A DNA stretch of 64,000 bases from Pristionchus mayeri. Taxonomy: Eukaryota > Nematoda > Chromadorea > Rhabditida > Neodiplogasteridae. Where the stretch lies: the NCBI GenBank assembly GCA_036245805.1, contig BTRK01000005.1, forward strand, positions 24,523,445-24,587,444, written 5' to 3'. Within the stretch, counting starts at the first letter, position 1. Every line of letters begins with the position of its first letter. The position numbers and the translations under genes were made by a program. The notes beneath the pieces are model-generated. The model saw only the letters and a program-made list of their open reading frames with translations. It ran no database searches and was not told where the DNA came from. Positions 25,101 to 61,794 of the stretch are shown piece by piece.

Positions 25101-28100
25101 AATGAGTTCATCGGCACCTCCTCCGGAACGTAGGTTGACCCCCACACCTACAACCTCCAGGCTTAGAGCCGAGGGGTTCCCATCGAGTGCCGATAGAGCC
25201 GGTGGTGTCATATTCCCATCGAGTGCCGATGGTGTCACATTCCCATTGAGTGCCGTTAGGGCCGATGGTGACAGATTCCCATCGAGTGCCGTTAGAGCCG
25301 ATGGTGATAATACTAAATTCAGGCGAAATAATACTGAAGGATACAGTATGAAGTCATCCTTCAGTAATTCGTTGTACAACGTGTTCAACCTTAATGATGG
25401 TGCTGGTACCCCCTCAGCACAAGCAGCACCCACACTGGTAGAAGTACTGTACCAAGGGAAGCCTCCTGGTGCATACCTACCAGGAAGTGATTGGCGCATT
25501 TGGACTAAGCGTCTTGAAAATTACATGAGACTTCGAAATGTCTCAGAAGAGCACAAAAAGTTCGTGTTCTTAGACGAAATCGGTTCTGAAAATTATGCAA
25601 CATTGGAAGGATTACTCCCTGAAAAGGAACTAGAAGATTACACTTATGAGCAGTTTAAGTCAGCAATGGCTGCGCGTTTCCAGCGTAAAGTTTTGATATG
25701 GTCAGAACGATTTAAGCTGACTCAACTTACTCAGAAGCCGGCTCAAAATTTAGCAGAGTTCCTCAATGAAATACAGTGCGCTGCAAAGCTGTGCGAGTTT
25801 GAAAAAATCAAAGATATAAGAAACGCATTCGTAACTCTAGCTTTCATATCTGGTGTACGATCTAACGACACTAGGCTGAAATTGATAGAACAAACGGACA
25901 AAGATTCGTCCCAATTACTCGCATTAGCTGAAGCGCACGAGAGAGCAGGACTAGGAGCCAGAGAGCTCCATCATACCGTACCCAATTCGGTACACCTCGT
26001 GCGTGGCAGGAAGGATGAATACCCTGACCACCGAACACGAAATGACAGTGATGGACACAATCGAAGAGAGCGAACAAAGGTAATGACCCAGCGACAGAAA
26101 TTTTGAATATATTTGTAAAGTGAACGGTCACAGAACCGATGACTGCAGATACAATGGCAAGAATGAGTCAAATCTCGTAAGTGAAGATGAGGCCAGTCTT
26201 TACGAAGAAGATATCGACTACATTCAACTGCACGCTGTGGACCTAATACCTAAAGAAGCTCCGCCCAAATGCCTCATTGAGGCAGTGATTGACAAGACAC
26301 CCATTACCTTTGAGCTGGATACAGGCTCTGGAGCGTCTGTCATAGGCTCCCAAACATGGGAAGCCCTGGGCAAACCGAAGCTGCAAGAAACACCTAGTAG
26401 CTAAGGCATACGGTGGCCAGCTACTGAGATTCCAAGGTATGCTGCAGACTGAGGTTGAGTGGGGATCAAAAAGAATCCCTACGCGATTGTATGTCCTGAA
26501 CAAGTCATCACCCTCACTTTGGGGAAGAGAGTCAATCCAGATATTTAATATGGACCTAGGATTAGTCTACCGCCAAGGAATCAATAAGGCGATGAAAGTT
26601 AAAGGTGTTTTGAGTGGGACTGATCATCCTACGCCCAATAGAGCATAGCTCCACCTCCCTGAACTTCATTGTTGACTATCCTTGTTACCTATTTTTAAAC
26701 ATTTATAAAAAATAACAAGCCATCAGAGCTTGGGGAGGACAACCTCTAATAAAATAAGCTCTATTGAAACAGATTCTTTATTGAGTCAGAGCATAAACTA
26801 GTTTCCAAATAATAACCTCTCTTGAGACAAATTCTTTAGTAAAAGCTAGTGAGTTAGTCTCGTTTCTATACGTTGCTAAATTAGAGCACGATTTATAGTA
26901 GATACTAAATTTGTGACTAGTTAAAGAGCCTCTCACCTCTACCACACCCTTCAAGGCTACAAGCATAACTAGCTAGTGACACTATAAGTTGATCACTAGG
27001 GGGGAGGAGATGGGTAGAGAAGTGAGAGTGCATTAATCTACGTGAGAAGGTCAGTTACACGTCGCATAAAAGGTCAACAACACTAACAAGATTGGATTTG
27101 CCTGGCGACGTGCGATACCGAAGCTAATAATACTAAGGGTGAAGATGATCCCTCATTTCCCTCTTCATTACCCTCAATGGACCGGCCGCCTCGGAGTATA
27201 TAAACCCCTCGCACCCTCTCTCCATTCACTCTCATCCGAGATAAAATAGTCTACTCTCTCTCGTCTTTTTGGTCTTCTACACAAGAACCAACTACCATTG
27301 CGCACTTTCTCCTTATAATCTTCCAATCTTCCAAATGGAGTATAAACATCTAAAATTATGAAAAGAACAATGGGGGATATTGGCAGTAATACGGAATTCG
27401 CGACTCGTCCGCCAGTCGGATGCCCCCTCCGAAGGCTGGGACCGACGGCTGGTCAAGGGCATCCATTGGAGTGATGCCATCCAGAGTGAATAAACTCTCC
27501 CCAAATTGAAATTTTTTGAAAGTACATTAATTGGCGCGCGTTGGCGACAACCAGCTTTTTGTCACAAAAATATCGCAAACTGAAAAAACTTGTAGTTACA
27601 TGACTAACGTCGAAACGATGTAGTATTTAATTATTCTATATATAGCGCACTCTGAAAAATCTGAATGACGTAATCGAAGAAGAATACTAACATAAATCGA
27701 CTCAAGAAGACGAAATCAATTACTGCTCCTGCTCAAACTACGGTAGTTCGCCGAGACAAATCTACAATAATCAGTTTTAAAGTTACCCAACACCCTTGAA
27801 AATGCCTTTCTGTATTATTTAACAATGTAGTAGAACGGGTTCTAATCAGTTCAACTGGAATAATGCAAATAATAGAAAATCAATATTTGCAACTACGTAG
27901 AGCCGCAAAGTTTCAGTCTGAATTGCCTGATCACGCCCGCTCTCTCTCTTTTACACACTCTCTCGCTCGCTTTGTCGTGATCAGGACACTCCCGCCAGTT
28001 CAAATTATTTTCATGGGTGTTGGGAAACTTCAATATCAATATCAATAAATGGGCGAACTGTTCTTCTCATAAAAACTTGTTTTTCTCATAAAAATCGATT

Positions 28101-32365: not shown

Positions 32366-33531
32366 TTATATATCTTTTCATTTAATGTTTGTGTTGTACA
32401 CGTTGTTTTTTTGTTGAGATGTGTTTTTTCCTCACTCTCATCCGAGATAAAAATAGTCTAGATACTCACTCTCGTCTTTTGGTTATCACAAGATACAACC
32501 AACTTGGGGCACCATGTGAAATTTAGAACTTCATCGGCTATTATTTTGGTATCATACACCGTGCAATCGAGGGTGATAAATTGCAAAATTTAACCAGAAC
32601 CTGTAAAACTCAAGATACCTCAAATACGCCTCTGCAAATCGTGCTGTGCGTGCGGTTCGTTGGATTCGTTGGTTGGATCATGATCAAAGTTGTCCAGCAC
32701 TGACGACGTATTGCAAGTCGAAAAAATCCGCGACCCCCTCTATACGTTGTATCTTTGCTCAATTTGTCAGTCAAAAAATCGACGTTTAGGTCATGGTCGA
32801 TAATGTTGTGGTAGGTCATGGTGTAATCAGGTCCAACTACAGTGCCATCTTACACTATGGAACTACAGTAATCCAACAGTGATTCGATTACCGTAACCCC
32901 GGTTCCGTTGAGCAACTTTAGTACTAGCAACTCAAGTCAAACTTTTTAGAAAATCATCATTCAATATTACAAAATCATCAATCAATACTTTAAAGTTACC
33001 GGACGATGAAAAAAAATTGACCCCTATTATTAATTCAGAAACGGATAGGGGATGGCTTAATTAGCAGGAACGGAACAAACAAAAATGTTAAAAATCAATA
33101 ATCTACCCAGGGCGTGACCTAGAAGCATCAGGCCCAATTTAGGGACGGCAACGGTGTTAACAAATGAACAAAACAATTCACAAATGGGTCCCCAATCGAA
33201 GAGTATGCCTACCCCATTCCGACTTATCACTTTAGTTAAAAAAAATAATGATCAACTAAAGAGAAAAACAATAATAAACATAAGTCAAAATGCCGACGCT
33301 TTCAGTCCAAGTGGAGCGCATCTCAAGTCACCCCTTCACTCCGAATTATCGCAAACTGAAGTAGCTGATTTTTATTGAAGTAACGCAAAACCATTTACTG
33401 TATGGTTTTTACTTGTGAATAGCACTCTAGCAACCACTAATTATCAGTTATAATTACAAATACGGAGAGAAATTATTCTAGGCACCTTGAAGCCACACTG
33501 AGAACCAGAGATTACGGTAGTTGCAAATTCG
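32366..33531. other. Intergenic, LTR and MITE fragments
   Basis: 32430-32510 matches the R-U5 part of the LTR family (CTCACTCTCATCCGAGATAA...ATACAACCAACT). 32993-33110 is a partial AAGTTACCGGACGA MITE. No gene seen. Confidence 0.5.
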
Positions 33532-33662
33532 ACGTTCATTTTCTCTGAGGACGACATTCGTATATTTCTGATTTTGTAATATAAGATGCGCATCGATGTC
33601 TTGAAATACATACTATAAAATCTCAGATATACGAATGTCGTCCTCCGAGGAAACATTGAACG
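33532..33662. repeat. Hairpin MITE-like repeat
   Basis: The left arm GAGGACGACATTCGTATAT and right arm ATATACGAATGTCGTCCTC pair around a 60-bp centre. The outer words are cgttcatttt / aacattgaacg. Confidence 0.75.
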
Positions 33663-33754
33663 CTCATTTTCGTAACGGTAAAATGCTCTATTTTGACGGC
33701 CTTATTCTCTTTTATTTGATATTTATATTTATTTTTATGTTGAAAAACATTTTT

Positions 33755-34075
33755 TGCGCTTCATAATCTACAAATACTGTGAAAACGAAGCTTCAACACT
33801 TAGTTCTGAAAACACATGTATTTTCGATTGCTTCGTGCTTCTCCAATTCTTCAATATTTCTATTCTTGCCATGCTTGGTGTTCTTTCAATATGTGTTCAT
33901 ATTCATTCCAATTAATAAAATAGCTTAAAAATAACATTAAATATTTTTAAAAAATGTTTTAAAATATTGAAAGAACTTGGCTTGAAAAGTACGGTAGTTT
34001 GAAGGAAAAGCGTCGGAAGGAGGCATCCATTATTCCGTACTCAAAAATTCCCGCTGCCGTCCCTAGCCCAATTGC
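33755..34075 (+). repeat. Dispersed repeat R2, copy 2
   Basis: Collinear with 29560-30105 but without the MITE insertion, giving the pre-insertion state. Confidence 0.75.
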
Positions 34076-34225: not shown

Positions 34226-34535
34226 AGTTGATTACTGTAAAGCCTTGTCTCCGCCGTTTTTGTTGCGCATTTCATATTTTTTTATCAGGGACGCTTGATA
34301 AACACTCCGACGCTTGATAAACGCTTCCCTATACAGAAAACAGCACCAATAGTTGAGCCAGGAGCGGGAAAATATAAACGCGCGCGTACGTGAAAGAGGC
34401 GGAGCGATGAGAGCCGGAGATAAAACACGGAACCTCTTTGCACGGCTCTCACACCATACACCATTACACCGTCCGTGGTTTTTACACCGGCATACACCGT
34501 CCGTAGTTTTTTATTTCACTAATACTCGAAATAGC
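34226..34535 (+). repeat. Direct repeat flanking the giant element, left copy
   Basis: About 290 bp nearly identical and in the same orientation as 47246-47491 (CTTGTCTCCGCCGTTTT, GGGAAAATATAAACGCGCGC, GGCGGAGCGATGAGAGCCGG). This copy has an extra 19-bp internal duplication around GCTTGATAAACACTCCGAC. Confidence 0.85.
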
Positions 34536-34799
34536 ATGTCTGAACTGATTCATGAAAAAATCAAGTTTCATCTTGGACACGTTTTTTGTAATGTGTGAAC
34601 TAAATTCACCCAGGGCTCTTGCAACTGTTTAACCGTTTCAACCACTGCGAAGTGAAGAAAGTCCACTGTTTTGGGAGTTCAACCGTTACACCAAAAAATT
34701 GAACTTGTTTTTCGCCTGTGTAACAGAATCACCCTGTATGAGGGGTAGATGTTACCCCTTGCCAAAACCAGTGCATGGACTTAAAAAAAAGTGTGTTTT

Positions 34800-35280
34800 T
34801 AGGCCGATTTGTAGGGTAGAAAGTTCCGATAAATTAAGTCTCATTTATTGTAGGCGACAAATAACATCGACAAATTAGTAGGCACAGGGCCTTTCGACGA
34901 GCTTCCTACGATACGGAACAACGCATTAGTAGGCTACAAATAGAGAAAGTAATTTTGTAGGATGGGGTGACAATCGTGATGATGCTACGAATATGAGCAG
35001 TAAAATAGTAGGCTACTAATTGAGTCGAAAAATTTGTAGGGACACGGTTCGGAAGGTGTGTCCCTACAAATAAAGAAATCAAACAAGTAGGCCTACTTAT
35101 TTGATTTCTTTATTTGTAGGGATCACCTTCCGAACCATGTCCCTACAAATTTTTCGACTCAATTAGTAGGCCTACAAATTGAGTCGAAAAATTTGTAGGG
35201 TTTTTTTGCCTCCCGAGGACCCTACAAATTAGCATCTCAATTTGTAGGCTAAAACCCTAATTTGTAGGGAAATTTTAAAA
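34800..35280. repeat. Left subterminal TTTGTAGG repeat region
   Basis: Repeated TTTGTAGG and TTAGTAGGC words in both orientations. They are likely transposase-binding or hairpin-forming subterminal repeats of the giant element. Confidence 0.8.
35010..35173. repeat. Large palindrome in the left subterminal region
   Basis: Two arms of about 80 bp with almost no loop (GCCTACTAATTGAGTCGAAA... mirrored by ...TTTCGACTCAATTAGTAGGC), with a few mismatches. Confidence 0.85.
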
Positions 35281-35310
35281 AATAAAGTTTCAGTCTAAAA
35301 ATCGATAAAG

Positions 35311-35823
35311 ATGGATATGAAATTCGGAAAAAAAGCCTGTGGCGTCATCGTTGAGGTCGTAAGATTCCTCCCAGCAATTTTGGAGCGAATCGGTTGTGGT
35401 CGCCTGAGGCTGAAAATTGAAAATTTTCGAAATTTCGACAAAAGTTTTTTTTCGTTTTTTCTTCATTTTATGATGGAATATGATGAATTAAGGTGTTTTC
35501 TCACATTTAGACGCTTGTTTCAGGTTAGATGTCGTCTGGAAGTCGTCGCCAGCTCGCCGGCCGGGGGAATTCGACCCACTGCAGAGTGTTTTTGGAGTGA
35601 TAAAACCACGGTGATCTGTACTATTATGATAAAATGTTACTTACGTCGTCTCTGTGTGTTCCTGAGCTCGCGGAAGTTGGTTGCTCTCAGTTGGCCGGTG
35701 AGATTTGACGATGGCTATCTGAAGAATAAAGGCGATAGATCTCATGTGGCACTATGTCTCTACATGTCTCACTCTTTTACATGTTCGTTAATACATATCA
35801 ATAGGGACAACTGTATAGTTTGA
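35311..35823 (+). CDS. Open frame of unknown status between TIR and satellite
   Basis: A 170-codon frame just inside the left subterminal region. No domain is recognised, and parts are Phe/Leu/Arg-rich as expected of chance translation. Acceptor-like TTTCAG at 35517-35522 precedes a second short start (MSSGSRRQLAGRG), and GGTGAG donors occur near 35697, so the true structure may be small exons of a cargo gene. There is no homology evidence. Confidence 0.2.
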   Translation: MDMKFGKKACGVIVEVVRFLPAILERIGCGRLRLKIENFRNFDKSFFSFFLHFMMEYDELRCFLTFRRLFQVRCRLEVVASSPAGGIRPTAECFWSDKTTVICTIMIKCYLRRLCVFLSSRKLVALSWPVRFDDGYLKNKGDRSHVALCLYMSHSFTCSLIHINRDNCIV

Positions 35824-35840
35824 AGATAAGATTCGGTGGA

Positions 35841-38800
35841 GTGCCGCCGTAAGTTTGCAGAGAAATCAGACCATTTTGGCAATACCTGTCACTGACCTCT
35901 GGGAGTTAGGGGAGTCATGTCAACCCAAAATAGGTGTGAACGTCATGGTGGGGGGATTGACTTGAGACTTGGCAGGGATGATCACTAGGGTATATTTAGT
36001 GCCGCCGTAAGTTTGCAGAGAAATCCGACCATTTTGGCAAAAACCTGTGACTGACCTCTGGGAGTTAGGGGAGTCATGTCAACCCAAAATAGGGGTGAAC
36101 GTCATGGTGGGGGATTGACTTGAGACTTGGCAGGGATGATCACTAGGGTATATTTAGTGCCGCCGTAAATTTGCAGAGAAATCCGACCATTTTGGCAATA
36201 CCTGTGACTGACCTCTGGGAGTTAGGGGAGTCATGTCAACCCAAAATAGGGGTGAACGTCATGGTGGGGGATTGACTTGAGACTTGGCAGGGATGATCAC
36301 TAGGGTATATTTAGTGCCGCCGTAAATTTGCAGAGAAATCCGACCATTTTGGCAATACCTGTGACTGACCTGTGGTGGAGAGGGGGGATATCTGGCCGGA
36401 GTGAGAGGGTGGACATAAACGAAAAATCGATGGTCGCCAATAGGCTTAGGACTTTGCAGAGATGATCACTAGGGTATATTTAGTGCCGCCGTAAGTTTGC
36501 AGAGAAATCCGACCATTTTGGCAAAAACCTGTGACTGACCTCTGGGAGTTAGGGGAGTCATGTCAACCCAAAATAGGGGTGAACGTCATGGTGGGGGATT
36601 GACTTGAGACTTGGCAGGGATGATCACTAGGGTATATTTAGTGCCGCCGTAAGTTTGCAGAGAAATCCGACCATTTTGGCCATACCTGTCACTGACCTCT
36701 TGGAGTTAGGGGAGTCATGTCAACCCAAAATAGGGGTGAACGTCATGGTGGGGGATTGACTTGAGACTTGGCAGGGATGATCACTAGGGTATATTTAGTG
36801 CCGCCGTAAATTTGCAGAGCTATCCGATCATTTTGGCAATACCTGTCACTGACCTGTGGTGGGGAGGGGGGACATCTGGCCGGAGTGAGAGGGTGGACAT
36901 AGACGAAAAATCGATGGTCGCCAATAGGCTTAGGACTTGGCAAAGATGATTACTAGGGTATATTTAGTGCCGCCGTAAATTTGCAGAGAAATCCGACCAT
37001 TTTGGCAATACCTGTGACTGACCTGTGGTGGGGAGAGGGGATATCTGGCCGGAGTGAGAGGGTGGACATAGACGAAAAATCGATGGTCGCCAATAGGCTT
37101 AGGTCTTTGCAGAGATGATCACTAGGGTATATTTAGTGCCGCCGTAAGTTTGCAGAGAAATCCGACCATTTTGGCAATACCTGTCACTGACCTCTGGGAG
37201 TTAGGGGAGTCATGTCAACCCAAAATAGGGGTGAACGTCATGGTGGGGGATTGACTTGAGACTTGGCAGGGATGATCACTAGGGTATATTTAGTGCCGCC
37301 GTAAATTTGCAGAGCTATCCGATCATTTTGGCAATACCTGTCACTGACCTGTGGTGGGGAGGGGGGACATCTGGCCGGAGTGAGAGGGTGGACATAGAAG
37401 AAAAATCGATGGTCGCCAATAGGCTTAGGACTTTGCAGAGATTATCACTAGGGTATATTTAGTGCCGCCGTAAGTTTGCAGAGAAATCCGACCATTTTGG
37501 CCATACCTGTCACTGACCTCTTGGAGTTAGGGGAGTCATGTCAACCCAATATAGGGGTGAACGTCATGGTGGGGGATTGACTTGAGACTTGGCAGGGATG
37601 ATCACTAGGGAATATTTAGTGCCGCCGTAAGTTTGCAGAGAAATCCGACCATTTTGGCCATACCTGTCACTGACCTCTTGGAGTTAGGGGAATCATGTCA
37701 ACCCAAAATAGGGGTGAACGTCATGGTGGGGGATTGACTTGAGACTTGGCAGGGATGATCACTAGGGTATATTTAGTGCCGACGTAAGTTTGCAGAGAAA
37801 TCCGACCATTTTGGCAATACCTGTCACTGACCTCTGGGAGTTAGGGGAGTCATGTGTGACCTGTGAGGTCTATGGCCTCACAGGTCAGTCACAGGTATTG
37901 CCAAAATGGTCGGATTTCTCTGCAAATTTACGGCGGCACTAAATATACCCTAGTAATCATCTCTGCCAAGTCCTAAGCCTATTGGCGACCATCGATTTTT
38001 GGTCTATGTCCTCCCTCTGACTCCGGCCAGATGTCCCCCCTCCCCACCACAGGTCAGTCACAGGTATTGCCAAAATGATCGGATAGCTCCTATTTTGGGT
38101 TGACATGACTCCGCTAAGTCCCAGAGGTCAGTGACAGGTATTGCCAAAATGGTCGGATTTCTCTGCAAACTTACGGCGGCACTAAATATACCCTAGTGAT
38201 CATCTCTGCCAAGTCCTAAGCCTATTGGCGACCATCGATTTTTGGTCTATGTCCTCCCTCTCACTCTGGCCAGATATCCCCCCTCCCCACCACAGGTCAG
38301 TGAAAGGTATTGCCAAAATGATCGGATAGCTCTGCAAATTTACGGCGGCAATAAATATACCCTAGTGATCATCCCTGCCAAGTCTCAAGTCAATCCCCCA
38401 CCATGACGTTCACCCCTATTTTGGGTTGACATGACTCCCCTAACTCCCAGAGGTCAGTGACAGGTTTTGCCAAAATGGTTGGATTTCTCTGCAAACTTAC
38501 GGCGGCACTAAATATACCCTAGTGATCATCCCTGCCAAGTCTCAAGTCAATCCCCCACCATGACGTTCACCCCTATTTTGGGTTGACATGACTCCCCTAA
38601 CTCCCAGAGGTCAGTGACAGGTATTGCCAAAATGGTCGGATTTCTCTGCAAACTTACGGCGGCACTAAATATACCCTAGTGATCATCTCTGCCAAGTCCT
38701 AAGCCTATTGGCGACCATCGATTTTTGGTCTATGGCCTCCCTCTGACTCCGGCCAGATATCCCCCCTCCCCTCCACAGGTCAGTCACAGGTATTGCCAAA

Positions 38801-41800
38801 ATGATCGGATAGCTCTGCAAATTTACGGCGGCACTAAATATACCTTAGTGAACATCCCTGCCAAGTCTCAAGTCAATCCCCCACCATGACGTTCACCCCT
38901 ATTTTGGGTTGACATGACTCCGCTAAGTCCCAGAGGTCAGTGACAGGTATTGCCAAAATGGTCGGATTTCTCTGCAAACTTACGGCGGCACTAAATATAC
39001 CCTAGTGATCATCTCTGCAAAGACCTAAGCCTATTGGCGACCATCGATTTTTCGTCTATGTCCACCCTCTCACTCCGGCCAGATATCCCCTCTCCCCACC
39101 ACAGGTGAGTCACAGGTATTGCCAAATGATCGGATAGCTCTGCAAATTTACGGCGCACTAAATATACCCTAGTAATCATCTCTGCCAAGTCCTAAGCCTA
39201 TTGGCGACCATCGATTTTTGGTCTATGTCCTCCCTCTCACTCCGGCCAGATATCCCCCCTCCCCACCACAGGTCAGTGAAAGGTATTGCCAAAATGATCG
39301 GATAGCTCTGCAAATTTACGGCGGCACTAAATATACCCTAGTGATCATCCCTGCCAAGTCTCAAGTCAATCCCCCACCATGACGTTCACCCCTATTTTGG
39401 GTTGACATGACTCCCCTAACTCCCAGAGGTCAGTGACAGGTATTGCCAAAATGGTCGGATTTCTCTGCAAACTTACGGCGGCACTAAATATACCCTAATG
39501 ATCATCCCTGCCAAGTCTCAAGTCAATCCCCCACCATGACGTTCACCCCTATTTTGGGTTGACATGACTCCGCTAAGTCCCAGAGGTCAGTGACAGGTAT
39601 TGCCAAAATGGTCGGATTTCTCTGCAAACTTACGGCGGCACTAAATATACCCTAGTGATCATCCCTGCCAAGTCTCAAGTCAATCCCCCACCATGACGTT
39701 CACCCCTATTTTGGGTTGACATGACTCCGCTAAGTCCCAGAGGTCAGTGACAGGTATTGCCAAAATGGTCGGATTTCTCTGCAAACTTACGGCGGCACTA
39801 AATATACCCTAGTGATCATCTCTGCCAAGTCCTAAGCCTATTGGCGACCATCGATTTTTGGTCTATGTCCTCCCTCTCACTCTGGCCAGATATCCCCCCT
39901 CCCCACCACAGGTCAGTGAAAGGTATTGCCAAAATGATCGGATAGCTCTGCAAATTTACGGCGGCACTAAATATACCCTAGTGATCATCCCTGCCAAGTC
40001 TCAAGTCAATCCCCCACCATGACGTTCACCCCTATTTTGGGTTGACATGACTCCCCTAACTCCCAGAGGTCAGTGACAGGTTTTGCCAAAATGGTTGGAT
40101 TTCTCTGCAAACTTACGGCGGCACTAAATATACCCTAGTGATCATCCCTGCCAAGTCTCAAGTCAATCCCCCACCATGACGTTCACCCCTATTTTGGGTT
40201 GACATGACTCCCCTAACTCCCAGAGGTCAGTGACAGGTATGGCCAAAATGGTCGGATTTCTCTGCAAACTTACGGCGGCACTAAATATACCCTAGTGATA
40301 ATCTCTGCAAAGACCTAAGCCTATTGGCGACCATCGATTTTTCGTCTATGTCCACCCTCTCACTCCGGCCAGATATCCCCTCTCCCCACCACAGGTCAGT
40401 CACAGGTATTGCCAAATGATCGGATAGCTCTGCAAATTTACGGCGCACTAAATATACCCTAGTAATCATCTCTGCCAAGTCCTAAGCCTATTGGCGACCA
40501 TCGATTTTTGGTCTATGTCCTCCCTCTCACTCCGGCCAGATATCCCCCCTCCCCACCACAGGTCAGTGAAAGGTATTGCCAAAATGATCGGATAGCTCTG
40601 CAAATTTACGGCGGCACTAAATATACCCTAGTGATCATCCCTGCCAAGTCTCAAGTCAATCCCCCACCATGACGTTCACCCCTATTTTGGGTTGACATGA
40701 CTCCCCTAACTCCCAGAGGTCAGTGACAGGTATTGCCAAAATGGTCGGATTTCTCTGCAAACTTACGGCGGCACTAAATATACCCTAATGATCATCCCTG
40801 CCAAGTCTCAAGTCAATCCCCCACCAAGACGTTCACCCCTATTTTGGGTTGACATGACTCCGCTAAGTCCCAGAGGTCAGTGACAGGTATTGCCAAAATG
40901 GTCGGATTTCTATGCAAACTTACGGCGGCACTAAATATACCCTAGTGATCATCCCTGCCAAGTCTCAAGTCAATCCCCCACCATGACGTTCATCCCTATT
41001 TTGGGTTGACATGACTCCGCTAAGTCCCAGAGGTCAGTGACAGGTATTGCCAAAATGGTCGGATTTCTCTGCAAACTTACGGCGGCACTAAATATACCCT
41101 AGTGATCATCTCTGCCAAGTCCTAAGCCTATTGGCGACCATCGATTTTTGGTCTATGACCTCCCTCTCACTCCGGCCAGATATCCCCCCTGCCACCACAG
41201 GTCAGTGAAAGGTATTGCCAAAATGATCGGATAGCTCTGCAAATTTACGGCGGCACTAAATATACCCTAGTGATCATCCCTGCCAAGTCTCAAGTCAATC
41301 CCCCACCATGACGTTCACCTCTATTTTGGGTTGACATGACTCCCCTAACTCCCAGAGGTCAGTGACAGGTATTGCCAAAATGGTTGGATTTCTCTGCAAA
41401 CTTACGGCGGTACTAAATATACCCTAGTGATCATCCCTGCCAAGTCTCAAGTCAATCCCCCACCATGACGTTCACCCCTATTTTGGGTTGACATGACTCC
41501 GCTAAGTCCCAGAGGTCAGTGACAGGTATTGCCAAAATGGTCGGATTTCTCTGCAAACTTACGGCGGCACTAAATATACCCTAGTGATCATCTCTGCCAA
41601 GTCCTAAGCCTATTGGCGACCATCGATTTTTGGTCTATGTCCTCCCTCTGACTCCGGCCAGATATCCCCCCTCCCCACCACAGGTCAGTCACAGGTATTG
41701 CCAAATGATCGGATAGCTCTGCAAATTTACGGCGACACTAAATATACCCTAGTAATCATCTCTGCCAAGTCCTAAGCCTATTGGCGACCATCGATTTTTG

Positions 41801-44800
41801 GTCTATGTCCTCCCTCTCACTCCGGCCAGATATCCCCCCTCCCCACCACAGGTCAGTGAAAGGTATTGCCAAAATGATCGGATAGCTCTGCAAATTTACG
41901 GCGGCACTAAATATACCCTAGTGATCATCCCTGCCAAGTCTCAAGTCAATCCCCCACCATGACGTTCACCCCTATGTTGGGTTGACATGACTCCCCTAAC
42001 TCCCAGAGGTCAGTGACAGGTATTGCCAAAATGGTTGGATTTCTCTGCAAACTTACGGCGGCACTAAATATACCCTAGTGATCATCCCTGCCAAGTCTCA
42101 AGTCAATCCCCCACCATGACGTTCACCCCTATTTTGGGTTGACATGACTCCGCTAAGTCCCAGAGGTCAGTGACAGGTATTGCCAAAATGGTCGGATTTC
42201 TCTGCAAACTTACGGCGGCACTAAATATACCCTAGTGATCATCTCTGCCAAGTCCTAAGCCTATTGGCGACCATCGATTTTTGGTCTATGTCCTCCCTCT
42301 CACTCCGGCCAGATATCCCCCCTCCCCACCACAGGTCAGTGAAAGGTATTGCCAAAATGATCGGATAACTCTGCAAATTTACGGCGGCACTAAATATACC
42401 CTAGTGATCATCCCTGCCAAGTCTCAAGTCAATCCCCCACCATGACGTTCACCCCTATTTTGGGTTGACATGACTCCCCTAACTCCCAGAGGTCAGTGAC
42501 AGGTATTGCCAAAATGGTTGGATTTCTCTGCAAACTTACGGCGGCACTAAATATACCCTAGTGATCATCCCTGCCAAGTCTCAAGTCAATCCCCCACCAT
42601 GACGTTCACCCCTATTTTGGGTTGACATGACTCCGCTAAGTCCCAGAGGTCAGTCACAGGTATTGCCAAATGATCGGATAGCTCTGCAAATTTACGGCGA
42701 CACTAAATATACCCTAGTAATCATCTCTGCCAAGTCCTAAGCCTATTGGCGACCATCGATTTTTGGTCTATGTCCTCCCTCTCACTCCGGCCAGATATCC
42801 CCCCTCCCCACCACAGGTCAGTGAAAGGTATTGCCAAAATGATCGGATAGCTCTGCAAATTTACGGCGGCACTAAATATACCCTAGTGATCATCCCTGCC
42901 AAGTCTCAAGTCAATCCCCCACCATGACGTTCACCCCTATTTTGGGTTGACATGACTCCCCTAACTCCCAGAGGTCAGTGACAGGTATTGCCAAAATGGT
43001 TGGATTTCTCTGCAAACTTACGGCGGCACTAAATATACCCTAGTGATCATCCCTGCCAAGTCTCAAGTCAATCCCCCACCATGACGTTCACCCCTATTTT
43101 GGGTTGACATGACTCCGCTAAGTCCCAGAGGTCAGTGACAGGTATTGCCAAAATGGTCGGATTTCTCTGCAAACTTACGGCGGCACTAAATATACCCTAG
43201 TGATCATCTCTGCCAAGTCCTAAGCCTATTGGCGACCATCGATTTTTGGTCTATGTCCTCCCTCTGACTCCGGCCAGATATCCCCCCTCCCCACCACAGG
43301 TCAGTCACAGGTATTGCCAAATGATCGGATAGCTCTGCAAATTTACGGCGACACTAAATATACCCTAGTAATCATCTCTGCCAAGTCCTAAGCCTATTGG
43401 CGACCATCGATTTTTGGTCTATGTCCTCCCTCTCACTCCGGCCAGATATCCCCCCTCCCCACCACAGGTCAGTGAAAGGTATTGCCAAAATGATCGGATA
43501 GCTCTGCAAACTTACGGCGGCACTAAATATACCCTAGTGATCATCCCTGCCAAGTCTCAAGTCAATCCCCCACCATGACGTTCACCCCTATTTTGGGTTG
43601 ACATGACTCCGCTAAGTCCCAGAGGTCAGTGACAGGTATTGCCAAAATGGTCGGATTTCTCTGCAAACTTACGGCGGCACTAAATATACCCTAGTGATCA
43701 TCTCTGCCAAGTCCTAAGCCTATTGGCGACCATCGATTTTTGGTCTATGTCCTCCCTCTCACTCCGGCCAGATATCCCCCCTCCCCACCACAGGTCAGTG
43801 AAAGGTATTGCCAAAATGATCGGATAACTCTGCAAATTTACGGCGGCACTAAATATACCCTAGTGATCATCCCTGCCAAGTCTCAAGTCAATCCCCCACC
43901 ATGACGTTCACCCCTATTTTGGGTTGACATGACTCCCCTAACTCCCAGAGGTCAGTGACAGGTATTGCCAAAATGGTTGGATTTCTCTGCAAACTTACGG
44001 CGGCACTAAATATACCCTAGTGATCATCCCTGCCAAGTCTCAAGTCAATCCCCCACCATGACGTTCACCCCTATTTTGGGTTGACATGACTCCGCTAAGT
44101 CCCAGAGGTCAGTCACAGGTATTGCCAAATGATCGGATAGCTCTGCAAATTTACGGCGACACTAAATATACCCTAGTAATCATCTCTGCCAAGTCCTAAG
44201 CCTATTGGCGACCATCGATTTTTGGTCTATGTCCTCCCTCTCACTCCGGCCAGATATCCCCCCTCCCCACCACAGGTCAGTGAAAGGTATTGCCAAAATG
44301 ATCGGATAGCTCTGCAAATTTACGGCGGCACTAAATATACCCTAGTGATCATCCCTGCCAAGTCTCAAGTCAATCCCCCACCATGACGTTCACCCCTATT
44401 TTGGGTTGACATGACTCCCCTAACTCCCAGAGGTCAGTGACAGGTATTGCCAAAATGGTTGGATTTCTCTGCAAACTTACGGCGGCACTAAATATACCCT
44501 AGTGATCATCCCTGCCAAGTCTCAAGTCAATCCCCCACCATGACGTTCACCCCTATTTTGGGTTGACATGACTCCGCTAAGTCCCAGAGGTCAGTGACAG
44601 GTATTGCCAAAATGGTCGGATTTCTCTGCAAACTTACGGCGGCACTAAATATACCCTAGTGATCATCTCTGCCAAGTCCTAAGCCTATTGGCGACCATCG
44701 ATTTTTGGTCTATGTCCTCCCTCTGACTCCGGCCAGATATCCCCCCTCCCCACCACAGGTCAGTCACAGGTATTGCCAAATGATCGGATAGCTCTGCAAA

Positions 44801-45302
44801 TTTACGGCGACACTAAATATACCCTAGTAATCATCTCTGCCAAGTCCTAAGCCTATTGGCGACCATCGATTTTTGGTCTATGTCCTCCCTCTCACTCCGG
44901 CCAGATATCCCCCCTCCCCACCACAGGTCAGTGAAAGGTATTGCCAAAATGATCGGATAGCTCTGCAAACTTACGGCGGCACTAAATATACCCTAGTGAT
45001 CATCCCTGCCAAGTCTCAAGTCAATCCCCCACCATGACGTTCACCCCTATTTTGGGTTGACATGACTCCGCTAAGTCCCAGAGGTCAGTGACAGGTATTG
45101 CCAAAATGGTCGGATTTCTCTGCAAACTTACGGCGGCACTAAATATACCCTAGTGATCATCTCTGCCAAGTCCTAAGCCTATTGGCGACCATCGATTTTT
45201 GGTCTATGTCCTCCCTCTGACTCCGGCCAGATATCCCCCCTCCCCACCACAGGTCAGTCACAGGTATTGCCAAAATGATCGGATAGTTCTGCAAATTTAC
45301 GA
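35841..45302. repeat. Satellite array, units of about 158 and 169 bp, with internal inversion
   Basis: About 58 units. Type A (about 158 bp) contains GGGAGTTAGGGGAGTCATG and GTGAACGTCATGGTGGGGG. Type B (about 169 bp) contains GGTGGGGAGGGG and GAAAAATCGATGGTCGCC. Both share a core (CCGACCATTTTGGCAATACC, GGGTATATTTAGTGCCGCCG). Units 35841-37857 run in one direction and 37888-45302 in the other. In the second part, variant markers such as GGCGACACTAA recur at about 41735, 42695, 43350, 44157 and 44810, spacing of about 655, 807 and 960 bp, i.e. higher-order blocks of 4-6 units. Open frames in it are repeat shadows. Confidence 0.95.
37855..37890. repeat. Palindrome at the satellite inversion point
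   Basis: TGACCTGTGAGG and CCTCACAGGTCA pair around a 7-bp spacer exactly where the array changes orientation. Confidence 0.9.
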
Positions 45303-45474
45303 AAATGTGAAATGGAGGAAGAAATGGGACAGATTAGGTCGTGAAAATATAATTAACCTCCGTTTTCCAGCTCGAGTGCAGTCCAGGTGCGACAACGAAA
45401 GACGACTTTGGAGGCAACAACGGATGAAAGGTTCAAAGCCACTTGATGATTATTCTAGTTTTTATCGCCTTTGA
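45303..45474 (+). CDS. Possible exon between satellite and right TIR
   Basis: Immediately after the array an open frame reads on to TGA at 45474. Its last part (ARVQSRCDNERRLWRQQRM and onward) is polar and basic and is preceded by TTTTCCAG, an acceptor-like site at 45365-45372. It could be the last exon of a cargo gene whose start lies left of the satellite. This is speculative. Confidence 0.2.
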
Positions 45475-45849
45475 TTGTTTATGTGTCATACATGTCATAT
45501 TTATCACAATTTGTATTTTCTATTTCACTACTAGCCTATAATCATAGCTAAACGTAGTTACTATGTAGCTTCACAAATTCCATACTAGCTCCCTAACCCC
45601 TCCCAACCACTCATATACGTCTAGTTTTACAGTTTAACAGCTCTAGAGCCAGTAACTTTAGAAAAAATCGACTTTTCTCGAAATCGTCCTCTGACCACCA
45701 CTTTTTCATGCCCCTGGACGATTTTTCAAAATTAATCAAAAAGTCTAGTTTTTTTGCTTAAAATAGACCCCCTAGGCCCTAGGACTAATAAAACATCATT
45801 TTGTTAAATTTAAATAATTTTGAAAATTAATTCAAAATTAAAGTTTTTT
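45475..45849. other. Giant element interior, right side
   Basis: AT-rich non-coding sequence between the possible exon and the right subterminal repeats. Nothing recognised. Confidence 0.4.
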
Positions 45850-46265
45850 GCCTACAAATAATGGCTTAAAAATAGTAGCCTACAATCCGTCTCTCAAAAT
45901 TTGTCGGCACACCCCCTCCCTACAAATTACAAATGTCTGGCGGATGGTGTCTACAAATTTGGAGCTCCAATTTGTAGGGAGGGGGTGTGCCGACAAATTT
46001 TGAGAGACGGATTGTAGGCTACATATTTTTAGTCTTTGTTTTGTAGAAACTACCCCGACCCCCCTTCACCCTACAAGTTTGTTGCCTTCGATTGTAGCCT
46101 ACTATTTTCTTCTTCTAATTTGTAGATCACCTTCATTTTGTTGTACTTCCTACAAATGCAATCGAATAAAAAGTAGCCGACTTTATTCATTGTACAAATT
46201 GTAGCAACAGGGCGAATTCGGTCGATGCCTACAAATCGAGTCGACTTCTTTGTAGGAAGCGAAGA
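45850..46265. repeat. Right subterminal TTTGTAGG repeat region with palindrome
   Basis: Multiple CCTACAAA/TTTGTAGG words. 45876-46022 is a palindrome with arms of about 60 bp (GTAGCCTACAATCCGTCTCT... mirrored), different in sequence from the left palindrome but in the mirrored position. Confidence 0.82.
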
Positions 46266-46345
46266 GCCTACAAATCGGCCTAAAAACACACATTTTTTTA
46301 AGGCCATGCACTGGTTTTGGCAAGGGGTAACATCTACCCCTCATA

Positions 46346-47242
46346 TGTTCAACCATTGCTTAGCAGAAAAAAAAGAGTTCAGACATGCTATTTCGAGTAA
46401 CGCACCCCCCTTATATGGATACCAAAATTTTTGGTCCTTTCTCTGAGGGGAGCAAACAGGAAGAATTTAATTCTATCGAGTATGGTGTCTCCATACATGA
46501 TTCTGCGGGCCAGACTAGATCATCACCTCTCCTCTCAAAAAGCGTCCGCACGTTGGCTCGAAAAAATTCGCGCCAGCAAAGAAATTTATGGGAGAGAAGG
46601 GAATTTAGAGCTAATTTCTACTACTGAGAAAGAGAGGGAGAGGGTTCAGGGAAAGAGAGGGAGAGGGTTCAGAGAAAGAGAGGGAGAGGAGAGAGATAGA
46701 CGGGACATAGGAGAGGCCATAAATTGGTAGAAGGGATGTCAAGAGACGATTAATGAAGAGAAGGGGTTAGAAGTGAAGATTTTGAAGGATAATTGGGCCA
46801 TTCACTCTAGAGGGTAATAATATGTTATTCAAGGCGGGATTAATCTTACATTTAGAAATATACAAAACATCTCCGATAATCACACCTCTTGTCCACTGAT
46901 GATCACACCTCTTGTCCACTTTTCTAACTGCACGAAAAAATAGATGTGCATAGAACATCGTTCATAGAGTAATCATGTCACCGTTACTTTGCGATTTCGT
47001 TTCTTGAGGATCGATAAAATCGATTTCCATTCCACATTTCAAAACATAATCAATTCATTGCAGGTGAAGCGCAACCTTGGCAAAAAAAATTCACAGTTTG
47101 AGAAGAACCACGTAAAGGTAAAACTTGACAAAATGAGAAGCGGAGAACGGTCATCGAACCGGCGACCAAAAATTCGATAGGTTTGACAGACCACGCTACT
47201 GAGCCACGCTATCTAGTAGACGCTAAAAAATTAGGAGAGTTG
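46346..47242. other. Sequence right of the giant element, no gene recognised
   Basis: 46376-46402 is an inverted copy of 34530-34556 (GTTCAGACATGCTATTTCGAGTA). 46620-46710 is a GAGAGGGAGAGGGTTCAGNG repeat of about 26 bp in tandem, which creates Glu/Arg-rich open frames. 46895-46925 contains a 20-bp direct duplication (CACACCTCTTGTCCACT). Confidence 0.5.
47143..47212 (-). other. tRNA-like module, weak
   Basis: Minus strand: a B-box-like GGTTCGATGA and an A-box-like TGGCTCAGTAGCG. Imperfect. Confidence 0.35.
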
Positions 47243-47491: not shown

Positions 47492-47618
47492 GATGCCTTT
47501 GACTCCGCCCACTCTTCCGAGTCTTGATAATTGGATTATCTCTCTTCGGCATAGTTTCGAAATTCAAATCCCTTCTCTGCATTGTCGTTTCTCTTTATTC
47601 ACAGCAACATATTGTGTA

Positions 47619-50141
47619 CAGTCCTGTTGGTTTCCCATGTGAACACGTTGCGCTCCGAGTAACCCCCAGTAACCCCCACTGACCCCACGGGTCTAGCACG
47701 TTCATTTTTGAGAGAATCGTGCTTAAATTGGTTTTGTTGTGTTCTGCATGCAATTCTGCATCGAATCATATTCAATTTGTACTATTAAAAGTTGAAATAT
47801 TTCGGGAAATTAATTTTGAAGTTGTCGAAAAGAAAAAAATCACTTCCCGGTTCACAATACGGTACTCAAGAAAAATCAGTTCGCGGTTCGCGTTTTGGCA
47901 ACTTGCCAGCTGGCTACGTGGATTAACTTCGATTTTTGCTTTCAATGCGTATCTTCACTGTTTTATTAATTATTGTCTACTTATTGCCGTCTCAGAACAT
48001 TGGCGACTCGTACTGCAAGCTGATCCAAGGCGGACATCGACTGGAGTAATCTGTCAGATGAGTGATTTTCCCATATTTATATTTCCTTTGAACGGTTCAG
48101 TAAAGGCTTGTGCTGAAGGTTGTAGGTGACCGATGCCTTCTTTATCGATCGAGGAACAATGGAACAGGAATACAACACGGTTCTTCTTCAACTGGACAAC
48201 AATGAGATGAGTAATTTTGTACAATTAATTTACACAATGATTGCCTAGTTATCATCTGTCTCTTGAGAGTTTCAAGCTGTTTCTAGCATTAACATCTCTT
48301 ACGGATCAGTATTGACACATTACAAACGAGAGGAGAGGGAGGAAACAGGAGAGGGGAAGGAATATTGGTTAGCATTTTCTACTCAGGAATTTTCTATCGA
48401 TTGAAATTGAACTGCCTTTTGCTCAGTTCCTATATTCTTGGAAATCGCACTGAGGAGGTTGCGGAGTTAGTGAAGCAGTTATGTGAAGAAGAGAGGGATT
48501 CAGATGAAGAGCTCGAGACAGAGCAGGATGAAAGTTGGAACTTGGTTTCAAGAATGAAAACACTCACTTTAGATTATTGACGAGTTGAAGGAGGAGTACG
48601 GAATCCCCATCACCCGATATGTCCTAAGGAGGTTGATGGAGATGAAGGGAGTGAAAACATACTCTGAAAAGTGAACATTTCGATATGATTATATTCTGCA
48701 CCAAGATATTAATGATCAATAGAATATTCGTAGAAAAGTCCCGACCATCAATCCAACCCAAATGCAAAAGCGATACAAATATGTCGATGATCTCATGGCC
48801 TCTAATGAAACTTTCGCCAATTGGGTAATAGTTAGGTCTTCTATATACTTTATTAGTAAAAATACTTTTAGATTTGGAGTGACGAATGTACTGTACAGTT
48901 GGGCGGAAATCGTCGATTCATTCGTTCATCAAATCAGTATGATAAAAGAAGATTTACTAGCATTCATAAGTTCCCTAAAAAGGTACGCTACAAAATTATT
49001 AGAAATAGTAAAGTAAATCTATTTTGCAGTATATGATTTGGGGAGCCATCACTTGGGATGGAGCAGGCCCTCTTGCATTCATTGAGCCGGGAGAGACTCT
49101 AAACGGACCGGCATATATGGGAATAATGAAGGATTTCTTGCTCCCATTCATTGACAACTGGAGAGGAAGGAGCGAGGCTGTCTATCAACAGGATAGAGCT
49201 CCATGTCACGTTGCGAAAACATCACAAGCTCAATTTGCCAATTGGGGGATCACGTTGGCTCCGTGGGCTCCGTCCTCTCCAGACATGAATCCCATCGAGT
49301 ATATTTGGAGGGATTTGAAGATCTGGGTAAGGACGAATCGCAAGCCCAAGAGCCTATCTGATTTGAAGACTTCTATCCTACACTACTGGACCCATATCCT
49401 TAGTAAAGACATTTGTAGGAAGTATATTAACCACGTTAAGAAGAATATGACATTAGTTCATAAAGTTAAAGGAGGCCCCATTATTGATAAATGGAAGTAT
49501 AACAATTAACTATAATAATTTATTGTGTAAATTAATTGTACAAAATTACTCATCTGATTGTTGTCCAGTTGAAGAAGAACCGTGTTGTATTCCTGTTCCA
49601 TTGTTCCTCGATCGATAAAGAAGGCATCGGTCACCTACAACCTTCAGCACAAGCCTTTACTGAACCGTTCAAAGGAAATATAAATATGGGAAAATCACTC
49701 ATCTGACAGATTACTCCAGTCGATGTCCGCCTTGGATCAGCTTGCAGTACGAGTCGCCAATGTTCTGAGACGGCAATAAGTAGACAATAATTAATAAAAC
49801 AGCGAAGATACGCATTGAAAGCAAAAATCGAAGTTAATCCACGTAGCCAGCTGGCAAGTTGCCAAAACGCGAACCGCGAACTGATTTTTCTTGAGTACCG
49901 TATTGTGAACCGGGAAGTGATTTTTTTCTTTTCGACAACTTCAAAATTAATTTCCCGAAATATTTCAACTTTTAATAGTACAAATTGAATATGATTCGAT
50001 GCAGAATTGCATGCAGAACACAACAAAACCAATTTAAGCACGATTCTCTCAAAAATGAACGTGCTAGACCCGTGGGGTCAGTGGGGGTTACTGGGGGTTA
50101 CTCGGAGCGCAACGTGTTCACATGGGAAACCAACAGGACTG
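47619..50141 (+). mobile_element. Tc1-like DNA transposon with 620-bp TIRs
   Basis: Flanked by TA (47617-47618 and 50142-50143). The TIRs run 47619-48238 and about 49525-50141, start CAGTCCTGTTGGTTTCCC and are almost identical. A duplicated 136-codon open frame lies in each TIR on opposite strands and is a TIR shadow. The transposase gene fills the centre. The near identity of the arms suggests recent movement or arm homogenisation. Confidence 0.95.
48426..49509 (+). CDS. Tc1/mariner transposase (DD34E), spliced
   Basis: Coding blocks read by phase: about 48426-48543, 48575-48672, 48738-48823, 48872-48981 and 49030-49509, separated by introns of 31-65 bp. The enzyme cuts at TIR ends and integrates at TA. 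Catalytic residues: first Asp in IWSDEC (about 48883), second in YQQDRAPCH (about 49193), third Glu in PDMNPIEYIW (about 49298). Exactly 34 residues separate the last two. WGAITWDG and the basic C-terminal tail are typical of the family. The N-terminal DNA-binding part is shorter than the usual paired-type HTH pair, and the true start is not found. It may lie within the left TIR near 48160, or the N terminus may be damaged. Confidence 0.85.
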
Positions 50142-51789
50142 TACGTAACATAAGCAATGGTCTGACTCTCACAAATCCAAACTATCTCTCTGGTCAGAGC
50201 GCACAAAACGAAGAGAGTCAGAAATGTGCATGAAATGTTCTTTATTGAAGCGAACGATAAACATATGGTCATAGAAACAATTGTAGATGAACCGTTACAC
50301 TCTATGTTCCGATCTTTCCGTGTTTGAGCCTTCAGTAGAGAGAATGGAATGAGCAAAAGAAGCTGAACGACTGGTCATGGAGAGAGATGCTCAGTTTAAG
50401 GTTTTTGATCATCCTGTAGCTCACCTCACCAAGACCTGTGGCTGCGGGAAGTGCAGTGAATCTCCAATTGGGACTCGTCCCAATTACTGCTGTATCATAC
50501 ATTCAACTTTCAACGGTCGCATGATAGAAATGAAAGAGTCTGAAACTTTCAAAATCTTTCAAACCTGTTTCTTAGATGTAAAGCCAATTTTCGGTATCCA
50601 ATGATAGCTCATTCGAAAGAGCATGCACACGGCGGGTTTTGATGAACAAGCCCTTTGATATAAGCACGTGGGTTCAACCATGTATAAAAAGTCGTACCCA
50701 GAAAATAATTTTGAATGATTTTTGCCCGCCTAATACCGTATGTAATGCTGCGAAGGTACTGTCACACCGTTACACCATATTTGCTCAGTTCGCGGTAGGG
50801 GGTGTGCCTGAGTAGATGAGTTAGCACGGGCGTGAGTCGATACTCAGGTAAGGGGATTTATATCACATTGTGATCTGTGACTGTTGCATGTTTTTTATGT
50901 TTTGAAATACGGTCAAAATAGAGTAGTTAGTAAGCATCCACCCTGTAATAATCATTCAAGGTAAAATACACTCAAGGAATTGACTACACGGATTAAGGGA
51001 GTTTTTTCAAATCGACAGAAATGAAACGCCATACCTTTGGCTCCAAGCAAAAAATAGTGCTCCGCTCACCAGATTGAGAGCGCAGCTTCAAATGTGTACG
51101 ATTCTTTGCGTGGCGTGATCTCGGCGGGTTGCAAACGTGCAGCCTGGAATCACCATCAATTTTACATGCTTATAAAAACGAATATTTCGAAAGCTCGCGA
51201 CTGCGATGGCTGCTCTCCACGAAAAATCGTCTCTGTTCTTTGTTCAGCATGAATTCACCGGATACCTGATTTATCTCTTAATACTGGAAGGAACATTAAC
51301 AACACAGATATCGCGTGTCCCTACCGTATCCTATGAGTAATAAACGTTTAGTCTATTGAATCAAGGTTTGACAAAAATGAACAACTCGCTCTTTTAGGGA
51401 AAGGCTCGCTCTTTTATAGGCGAGAAGACATGGTAATTTTGATGTTAATATCCATTGTGCTCTCACTGCATTATTGGATAATCTATTCTCATTTTCGAGT
51501 GATTTGACTAGGGACCGCAGAGCATGGTCATTTCAGAATTCCAACTGACAGTACATGGGAAATGTCGACCACGCACCAATTTTCTTTTCAGTTTACGATT
51601 CCAAATCGTTTGAGAACTTTTGAAATCATTTTTCAGTTGTTTTCTACATTTTATTTTTGATACAGATTATTTTTTTCTTTTCCAAATGAATTCTCCCTAT
51701 CTCAATTATATTCTCAGATCATTTTGACCACTGTGAGGCCGGTATAATGCGGTTCATAGTGAAATTTAGAAAAGTTTATTTCTAATTTC
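50142..51789. other. Sequence right of the Tc1 element, no gene recognised
   Basis: Contains short inverted words (GTCAGAGCGCACAAAACGA), fragments shared with 58300 (GTGGGTTCAACCATG) and an open frame 50377-50604 of unknown nature, with CGCGKC-like cysteines but no recognisable fold. I call nothing. Confidence 0.35.
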
Positions 51790-60969: not shown

Positions 60970-61794
60970 TAAACGTCCGGTGTCGATTTGACGACTTTAA
61001 AATAATTCATCGTTCCGCTACAGTAAATTAGTTACAACATTCCGCGCGCGACATTTAGAAAATATATGAAAGTCGCTTGAATTACCGTGATATTCAAAAT
61101 AAAATCTTGGCAAAAGTCCAAAAATGGTATCTTACACGGAATACCCTGAAATTTGGATCCAAAAAAGTGTCTTTTGAATTTTCGCGCCTTGCAATTCACT
61201 GCACGTTTTTATACATTCAAATGCGCACCGGACCGCTTGTCACACCGTGTGTTTTTAAATAAGCCTTTTATTTTTTGGTTTTCTGAGTTTGACAGAGGTC
61301 CTCCAGTATTCCCCTTGTAGAATGTTGCTATGAAGGCGCAGATATTCCATATATTGACTTGTTTGAAAATTTTTTTACATTCGACCCCTGTTTTGCGATC
61401 GATATTTCGATTTTCTTGAGAAGCACAAGTTAGCGCTCCTGAGACATGAATTCTGTAGACATTCTAGAACCTAGTAATGCTAGCCGCGGGTAGCCGCGTC
61501 CGTTCGGAGCTGAAATAAACCGTTTTGTTTGCCGAAAACTCGCGATTTTCTGGGTTTGAGATCGATATTTTGTTTTTCTTGAGAAGCACACATTAGCGCT
61601 CCTCGGAAATGCAGTCTACAGGCCTTCTAGAGCCTAGTAATGCTAACCTCGAGCAGCCGTGCCCGTTCGGAGCTGAGATAAGCCGACTTGTTTCGACCGT
61701 TATTCTATCCGAGTTTCCATTAAATCTCAAAGATAAACTAATTTCCCGTTATATATTTCCCAAAACTATTTTTAGATCAATTCGAGAAACATAT

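Follow-up and report, generated by a model that had tools for sequence, protein, structure and literature searches.

A satellite array forms the core of an 11,609-bp element (hereafter E1) in the window, the whole 64,000-nucleotide stretch that we analysed (C5:24523445-24587444), and E1 is very likely a non-autonomous DNA transposon of the general cut-and-paste type. A second complete element on the same contig, E2, encloses a longer array of the same two monomer types between matching ends. The two elements are a clear example of satellite dispersal together with a mobile element. Satellites inside TIR transposons are already known from Jozin and Tetris; size and confinement are what is unusual here, and E1 and E2 are a new, extreme variant of this kind. 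The whole analysis rests on one assembly (290.8 Mb, 73 contigs), in which both complete elements lie inside C5, a chromosome-sized contig of 50.3 Mb.

Architecture of E1

E1 occupies positions 34737-46345 of the window, which contains no N. The first 79 bases recur inverted at the opposite end with 77/79 identities (BLAST E about 7e-32), and both ends carry the terminal sequence TATGAGGGG...CCCCTCATA. Matching termini had already been proposed in a sequence-only reading of the window and are borne out by this alignment. The mirrored subterminal repeats of that reading correspond to TTTGTAG/CTACAAA sites: the left arm has 12 and the right arm 10, compared with averages of 0.24 (left) and 0.20 (right) and maxima of 3 and 2 in 500 mononucleotide shuffles of the arms. 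Several palindromes lie within these zones of the E1 arms. The 9.5 kb of enclosed satellite that the same reading had described is likewise present, as an array of 9,462 bp (35840-45301) making up 81.5% of the element. Its orientation is mixed, with two segments meeting at a short palindrome (Table 1). A search of the window against Rfam gave no match at the gathering threshold. A protein search with a gag-like frame gave one unnamed protein, from a source labelled lgn, among the 7992 candidates scored, those with the most words in common.

Table 1 Features of E1 and its insertion site, in window coordinates
Feature	Positions	Strand	Remarks
End of interrupted MITE-like target repeat, 24 bp	34523..34546	+	inverse copy at 46376-46399
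Left TSD copy, TG	34735..34736	.	single TG in 4/4 unfilled copies; flank matches overlap by 2 bases at C5:24322083-24322084
Left TIR, TATGAGGGGTAGATGTTACCCC...	34737..34815	+	77/79 identical to right terminus
Left arm	34737..35839	+	TTTGTAG/CTACAAA zone to about 35270; inner part closer to E2; arm 85% identical to E2
Array segment 1, 157/169-bp monomers	35840..37855	+	
Head-to-head array junction, 12-bp palindrome	37857..37887	.	TGACCTGTGAGG at 37857-37868, CCTCACAGGTCA at 37876-37887
Array segment 2, opposite orientation, class A (157 bp) and class B (169 bp) monomers	37879..45301	-	
Right arm, subterminal repeat zone in outer part	45302..46345	-	83% identical to E2 right arm
Right TIR	46267..46345	-	
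Right TSD copy, TG	46346..46347	.	basis: unfilled copies and flank matches

Insertion site and target duplication of E1

The insertion of E1 interrupted a MITE-like repeat and led to a duplication of the dinucleotide TG. The left flank finds a 99% match at C5:24321787-24322085. Extended to 575 bases, the left-flank query matches C5:24321509-24322084 (99%), and 880 bases of right flank match C5:24322083-24322990 (92%), the two matches overlapping by exactly 2 bases. This unfilled copy of the locus (L063) lies 236 kb away on C5 and is free of both the E1 ends and the array. When the two E1 flanks are put together with a single TG between them, they agree with C5:24322050-24322250 at 198/201 positions, ungapped at the site. 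Three more copies of the target repeat (on C1, C2 and C5) read uninterrupted ACCC-TG-TTCAACC. A single TG is thus present in all of the unfilled copies read across the site (4/4), and because all four are unfilled, this state of the target is very probably ancestral. The repeat is MITE-like: 100 or more of the 300 left-flank bases have counterparts at no fewer than 24 other places, in a search that gave 43 matches in all and in which 40 of 68 candidates were scored.

The unfilled sites rule out TA as the target duplication, the duplicated TG lying outside it. The flanking TA therefore belongs to the element, which is 11,609 bp long and reaches two bases further at each end than the 34739..46343 first proposed. 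The TA flanks of the sequence-only reading accordingly stand as bases on both sides and fall as a target duplication, and an empty site of the kind that it had proposed to seek in another strain exists in the same assembly, with a single TG in place of the TA.

With matching TIRs and a short TSD that is single in unfilled sites, E1 has the marks of a TIR transposon. Several known groups can be set aside. A TA target duplication is defining for Tc1/mariner elements, and membership in that group is ruled out by a duplicated TG with the TA inside the element. Helitrons and Helentrons, the latter being rolling-circle elements, are not known to have a target duplication or TIRs of the E1 kind; E1 has both, which rules out this membership as well. 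Nor is E1 a classical foldback element, in which the tandem repeats lie within long inverted repeats, since its array is the core rather than part of the 79-bp TIR and the E2 array has one orientation. CACTA-like elements carry dense subterminal repeats, and in these and in the 2-bp duplication they resemble E1 and E2, in which the CAC start is absent. Some CACTA/CMC members combine a 2-bp TSD with CAC...GTG termini (in the available text of PMC6004678); the TG duplication agrees with the former, but the termini, TATGAGGGG, differ from CAC.

The second complete element, E2

Searches with the TIR, the arms and the satellite led to E2 (C5:938823-993344, 54,522 bp), which we read as six separate pieces, all free of N. 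It has matching TIRs at both ends and arms alignable to those of E1 (Table 1), so a search for further copies with the same termini, as the sequence-only reading had suggested, does recover a second one with the same two monomer types. The E2 array extends from C5:944419 to C5:987993 (43,575 bp, 79.9% of the element) and keeps a single orientation throughout, unlike the partly inverted array of E1. Four 10-kb pieces of the E2 array (L046-L049) contain no open frame of at least 110 aa.

The flanks of E2 read TG[TATGAGGGG...CCCCTCATA]TG. Its left flank matches five other places, the best two of which were read across the site; joined with one TG, the E2 flanks align ungapped at the site to both of these unfilled paralogues (2/2), which are diverged (77-80%) and carry TT at the insertion point. 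What this alignment establishes for E2 is the length of the duplication, 2 bp, and not its letters before insertion. Comparison of four core pieces of E2 reveals internal duplication (8 pairs, 0.9-3 kb, 97-99.5% identity), which indicates that at least part of the E2 length is recent and arose in place. The left interior of E2 also holds duplicated arm sequence.

Genome-wide distribution of ends and satellite

A 24-mer from the TIR, searched with at most 3 mismatches through the whole genome, finds 7 sites: the E1 pair, the E2 pair and one unpaired left end each on C1, C4 and C5 (27.44 Mb). The termini are thus not scattered as short MITEs, a pattern that the sequence-only reading had named as counting against it; there are two satellite-enclosing pairs and three single left ends. 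The latter start TGAGGACAAG rather than TGAGGGGTAG, and the terminal TA is kept only in the C4 end, where AA precedes it. Since the single left ends lack the TG context, they give no further support to the TG duplication. Another relative, the fourth, lies on C3 and is without the outermost 151 bases, and the relative at 27.44 Mb on C5 has E1-type ends and a different interior. In 20 kb of sequence around each of the C1, C4, C5 (27.44 Mb) and C3 relatives, satellite was looked for and not found. Matches to the right arm are found at E1 and E2 only, and complete elements number two, both on C5, in DNA searches with a first-look filter by which copies can be missed.

For the satellite, a 26-mer with at most 3 mismatches has 292 sites in the whole genome, 281 of them forward and 11 reverse, and none in the control. 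Counts within E1 and the E2 pieces account for 280 forward sites and all 11 reverse ones, and the remaining site lies across the edge of a piece; every match (292/292) falls within one of the two elements. No A/B satellite free of elements was found genome-wide under these settings, which cover sequences close to classes A and B. Satellite without the termini, the other observation named as adverse, was therefore not found for A and B in this search, but a diverged relative (class C) does occur outside E1 and E2, with about 82 bp of the core about 76% alike. Class C sits in a foldback-like element distinct from E1 and E2, and also forms an array of 8.4 kb at C4:9658831-9667238. The immediate flanks of this C4 array (86 and 92 bases) match neither the arms of that foldback-like element nor E1 or E2.

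Monomers and shared history of the two arrays

We cut 57 monomers from E1 and 257 from E2 (314 in total), and 296 of them fall into two length classes, the remaining 18 being left out for length. Class A (157 bp) and class B (169 bp) are both present in both elements, in mixed order. With monomers above about 100 bp in a long, homogenised tandem array, the repeats have the properties of a satellite. Within-class identity is about 95-97% in E1, and in E2 it is 95.7% for class B and 88% for class A. Between the elements, class B averages about 94% for the minus-strand segment of E1 and 92% for the plus-strand segment, and class A averages 87-88%. The monomer tree separates A from B without error (support 1.0) and places the E1 monomers in a single group within each class, with support of 0.90 in A and 0.88 in B.

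This grouping by element indicates that the present arrays are largely products of the time after separation. A core of about 80 bases common to A and B is near-identical within an element and different between elements, a sign of continuing homogenisation in each array. The monomer types found in both E1 and E2 make it probable that the element already contained the array when the two copies separated, and the presence of both classes in both elements implies an ancestor with more than one monomer. Identity between E1 and E2 is 95% (left) and 90% (right) in the inner arms, and 79% (left 525 bases) and 74% (right 500 bases) in the outer arms, the latter being the motif zone. The similar divergence of array and inner arms fits joint descent, and the subterminal motif zone, presumed to hold binding sites, either diverged faster or was exchanged.

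The interiors differ next to the arms. In E2 and in the C4 and C1 relatives, the left arm is followed by the same non-satellite interior, about 98% identical across 0.9 kb; the E1 satellite begins where this interior would, with 2 bases of shared sequence at the junction. On the right, the E1 arm joins a monomer directly, whereas in E2 about 4.3 kb separate the array from the arm. E1 would best be read as an internally deleted, partly inverted derivative.

No transposase was recognised among 19 open frames from the elements and their surroundings, none of which has a Pfam match above the curated cut-off; this test takes in open frames only, the gene-like interior being split and spliced genes lying outside it. 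About 8 kb inward from the left end of the C4 copy there is an open frame of 252 aa, which may or may not still belong to the element, as no right end of this copy was found. The frame gave neither a Pfam match above the cut-off nor a homologue at E <= 0.001; a second match to it, weak and interrupted, occurs about 1.3 kb away. The interiors of C4 and E2 have three blocks in common (76-82% identity), which suggests that a gene-like interior may be ancestral.

A possible history and its alternatives

We propose that an ancestral element already carrying an array of A and B monomers would have spread as a unit, its TIRs and subterminal repeats presumably recognised by a transposase supplied from elsewhere, and that, once in place, each array would have become homogenised and changed in size through unequal exchange. 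E1 would be the shortened derivative, having lost the interior still present in E2 so that its array came to adjoin both arms directly, and part of its array may have been inverted through a fold-back event. The sequence-only reading had the whole 11.6-kb unit moving; the unfilled sites and the second element support movement of the unit, and since arrays can grow after insertion, the arrays may or may not have moved at their present length. A bolder version, which we regard as possible though rather doubtful, is that this satellite family exists in the genome only as transposon cargo, in elements of 10-55 kb that are about 80% satellite and moved with their long arrays intact.

The size of the array at insertion is where the main alternative lies. 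E1 and E2 may have inserted with a few monomers or a short array that then grew in place to 9.5 kb and 43.6 kb, in which case the transposon seeded two loci and never moved a large array. The high identity of monomers within each element, their grouping by element and the internal duplications of E2 all accord with such growth, as does the model of Scalvenzi and Pollet, quoted in the part of PMC7492417 available, in which long arrays go with lower mobility; but the two monomer classes shared in mixed order require an ancestor with more than one monomer, and nothing restricts the ancestral array to a small size. We consider in-place growth quite possible, at somewhat under an even chance. It overlaps our preferred history, which leaves the array size at insertion open.

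It is in our judgement unlikely that ectopic recombination or gene conversion carried the array from one element to the other, or into both from a third source, when E1 and E2 already stood at their loci. The location of both elements on one contig would allow such exchange, and the greater divergence of the outer arms (79%, 74%) than of the inner arms (95%, 90%) and class B (92-94%), by which ends and core may differ in history, the duplicated arm sequence in the left interior of E2 and the E1-type ends on another interior at 27.44 Mb on C5 could be its traces. The step in identity, however, coincides on both sides with the inner edge of the subterminal zone (about 525/500 bases from the ends) and fits fast-evolving transposase-binding ends equally well, and inner arms and array are similarly diverged, as under joint descent. 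Long arrays are hard to assemble, and arrays and ends might have been mis-joined; against this, E1 and E2 lie inside a 50.3-Mb contig, contain no N and have flanking TGs and paralogous unfilled sites, which makes an artefact highly improbable. That two solo MITE-like ends came to flank a pre-existing satellite by chance, as the three single left ends elsewhere might suggest, has a negligible likelihood given an unfilled site without ends or array, at which the flanks meet at one TG, and given the same architecture found twice.

Relation to known systems

How satellites disperse is a long-standing question, and the cases in the literature, as far as the accessible texts describe them, are mostly short arrays in elements or arrays without ends. 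The two loci described here have complete ends, duplicated target bases, unfilled landing sites and no close satellite copy found elsewhere in the assembly, and their two defined insertion sites make satellite dispersal testable in strains and relatives. If the arrays were long at insertion, this would count against a poor mobility of elements with long internal arrays. If the satellite does exist only as cargo and moved in long arrays, transposition would be its main route to new loci, ahead of in-place birth and unequal exchange between chromosomes, and a long array would not strictly prevent movement. Among the matches listed from the open-licence literature, mostly seen as titles and starts of abstracts, there is no TIR element with a 40-kb satellite array.

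The closest counterpart is Jozin, a CACTA-like element of Chenopodium, as presented in the available part of PMC8978399: a 16,523-bp C. quinoa element includes 5,550 bp of satellite in 32.5 copies of a 171-bp monomer, and CACTA-like elements on three other C. quinoa scaffolds also carry the array. Like E1 and E2, Jozin is a TIR transposon with an internal satellite, and monomer length and plan are similar. According to the same text it differs in its Transposase_21 domain, the position of the array near the 3' end and its CAC termini, whereas E1 and E2 have TATGAGGGG termini, no recognised transposase and an array that fills about 80% of the element; the E2 array is about eight times longer than that of Jozin.

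Tetris, a foldback element of Drosophila virilis, has repeats of about 220 bp in satellite-like arrays of up to 66 copies (PMC4079207, in its accessible portion). It shares with E1 and E2 the character of an apparently non-autonomous TIR element with tandem repeats and rearranged forms. Its repeats are part of the TIRs, and their amplification is suggested by the authors to disrupt the element, whereas in E1 and E2 the repeats make up the core, and the searches found A/B satellite only inside complete elements. In Xenopus, Xstir and the Scalvenzi-Pollet model have internal tandem repeats of MITEs seeding satellites (as summarised in the review PMC12628747, in the part available); the point of likeness is the model, in which an array arises inside an inverted-repeat element. 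Long arrays in that model can lose the termini and become classical satellites, but the 43.6 kb of E2 are still enclosed by termini. Among nematodes, the Mutator/foldback element Tm1 of root-knot nematodes has composite TIRs and a putative transposase in one member group only (abstract of PMC3169594). Tm1 resembles E1 and E2 as a TIR element carrying other sequence and differs in its 9-bp TSDs, and its abstract mentions no satellite core. Helentrons of the Pacific oyster are, like E1 and E2, non-autonomous mobile carriers of satellite-like repeats; these are 140-180 bp long and mostly form arrays of up to 5 monomers, the longest having about 29 (PMC7492417, text available in part), as against 57 monomers cut from E1 and 257 from E2.

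Related ends and satellites elsewhere in the genome

Ends like those of E1, the 11,609-bp TIR element of the window, also occur on a 1.9-kb relative on C5 that is broken up by ~1.45 kb of other sequence. Its likeness to E1 stops ~430 bases in, inside the motif zone, and this relative carries E1-type ends on a different interior.

Class C satellite, a diverged relative of the E1 monomers, was found in two further settings. At L020, on C5, 3-4 direct copies and one inverted copy of a 158-bp monomer, whose ~82-bp core is 74-77% like the E1 satellite, are flanked by inverted arms of ~160 bp, with a third arm copy adjoining; this locus is another foldback-like element with satellite in its interior. 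Among the monomers of the C4 array, the full-length matches are 85-89% like L020. Neither the L020 arms nor those of E1 and its sister element E2 were found in the ~90 bases outside each array edge, and the class C satellite on C4 may be free-standing. An additional partial copy lies at C4:9675795. Within E2, the 229-bp tandem repeat showed no match to the satellite consensus.

Features in the window and at related loci
Feature	Location	Strand	Remarks
Relative with E1-type ends	C5:27435765-27437648 (L051:1765-3648)		ends 95-97% like E1
Class C satellite-bearing foldback-like element	C5:13283792-13284544 (L020:1129-1881)
Class C satellite array, 8.4 kb	C4:9658831-9667238		edges L069, L070
229-bp tandem repeat in E2	C5:988860-990242 (L050:1860-3242)		between satellite and right arm
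~930-bp repeat	window 33137-34066		numerous copies throughout assembly
163-bp-unit short arrays (two)	window 17469-17772, 61392-61693		1.9 copies each
Mariner-like element	window 47617-50144		DDE_3 frame at 49012-49506
Tyrosine recombinase open frame	window 8774-9538	-	PF00589 domain
Three 164-bp tandem copies and gag-like frame, 387 aa	window 24455-26106 region		weak Retrotrans_gag match, below cut-off

Other mobile elements and repeats in the window

The mariner-like element has inverted ends of ~620 bp, and near-identical (98-100%) copies on several contigs suggest that it was active recently. The tyrosine recombinase domain is of a kind found in DIRS- or Crypton-type elements. Three copies (99%) of a 164-bp tandem unit immediately precede the gag-like frame. 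The top copies of the ~930-bp repeat are 92-99% identical, and several copies of this repeat are clustered at 21-26 Mb on C5 and 23-26 Mb on C4. The two 163-bp-unit arrays lie 44 kb apart, and by eye their consensus units resemble mutual reverse complements.
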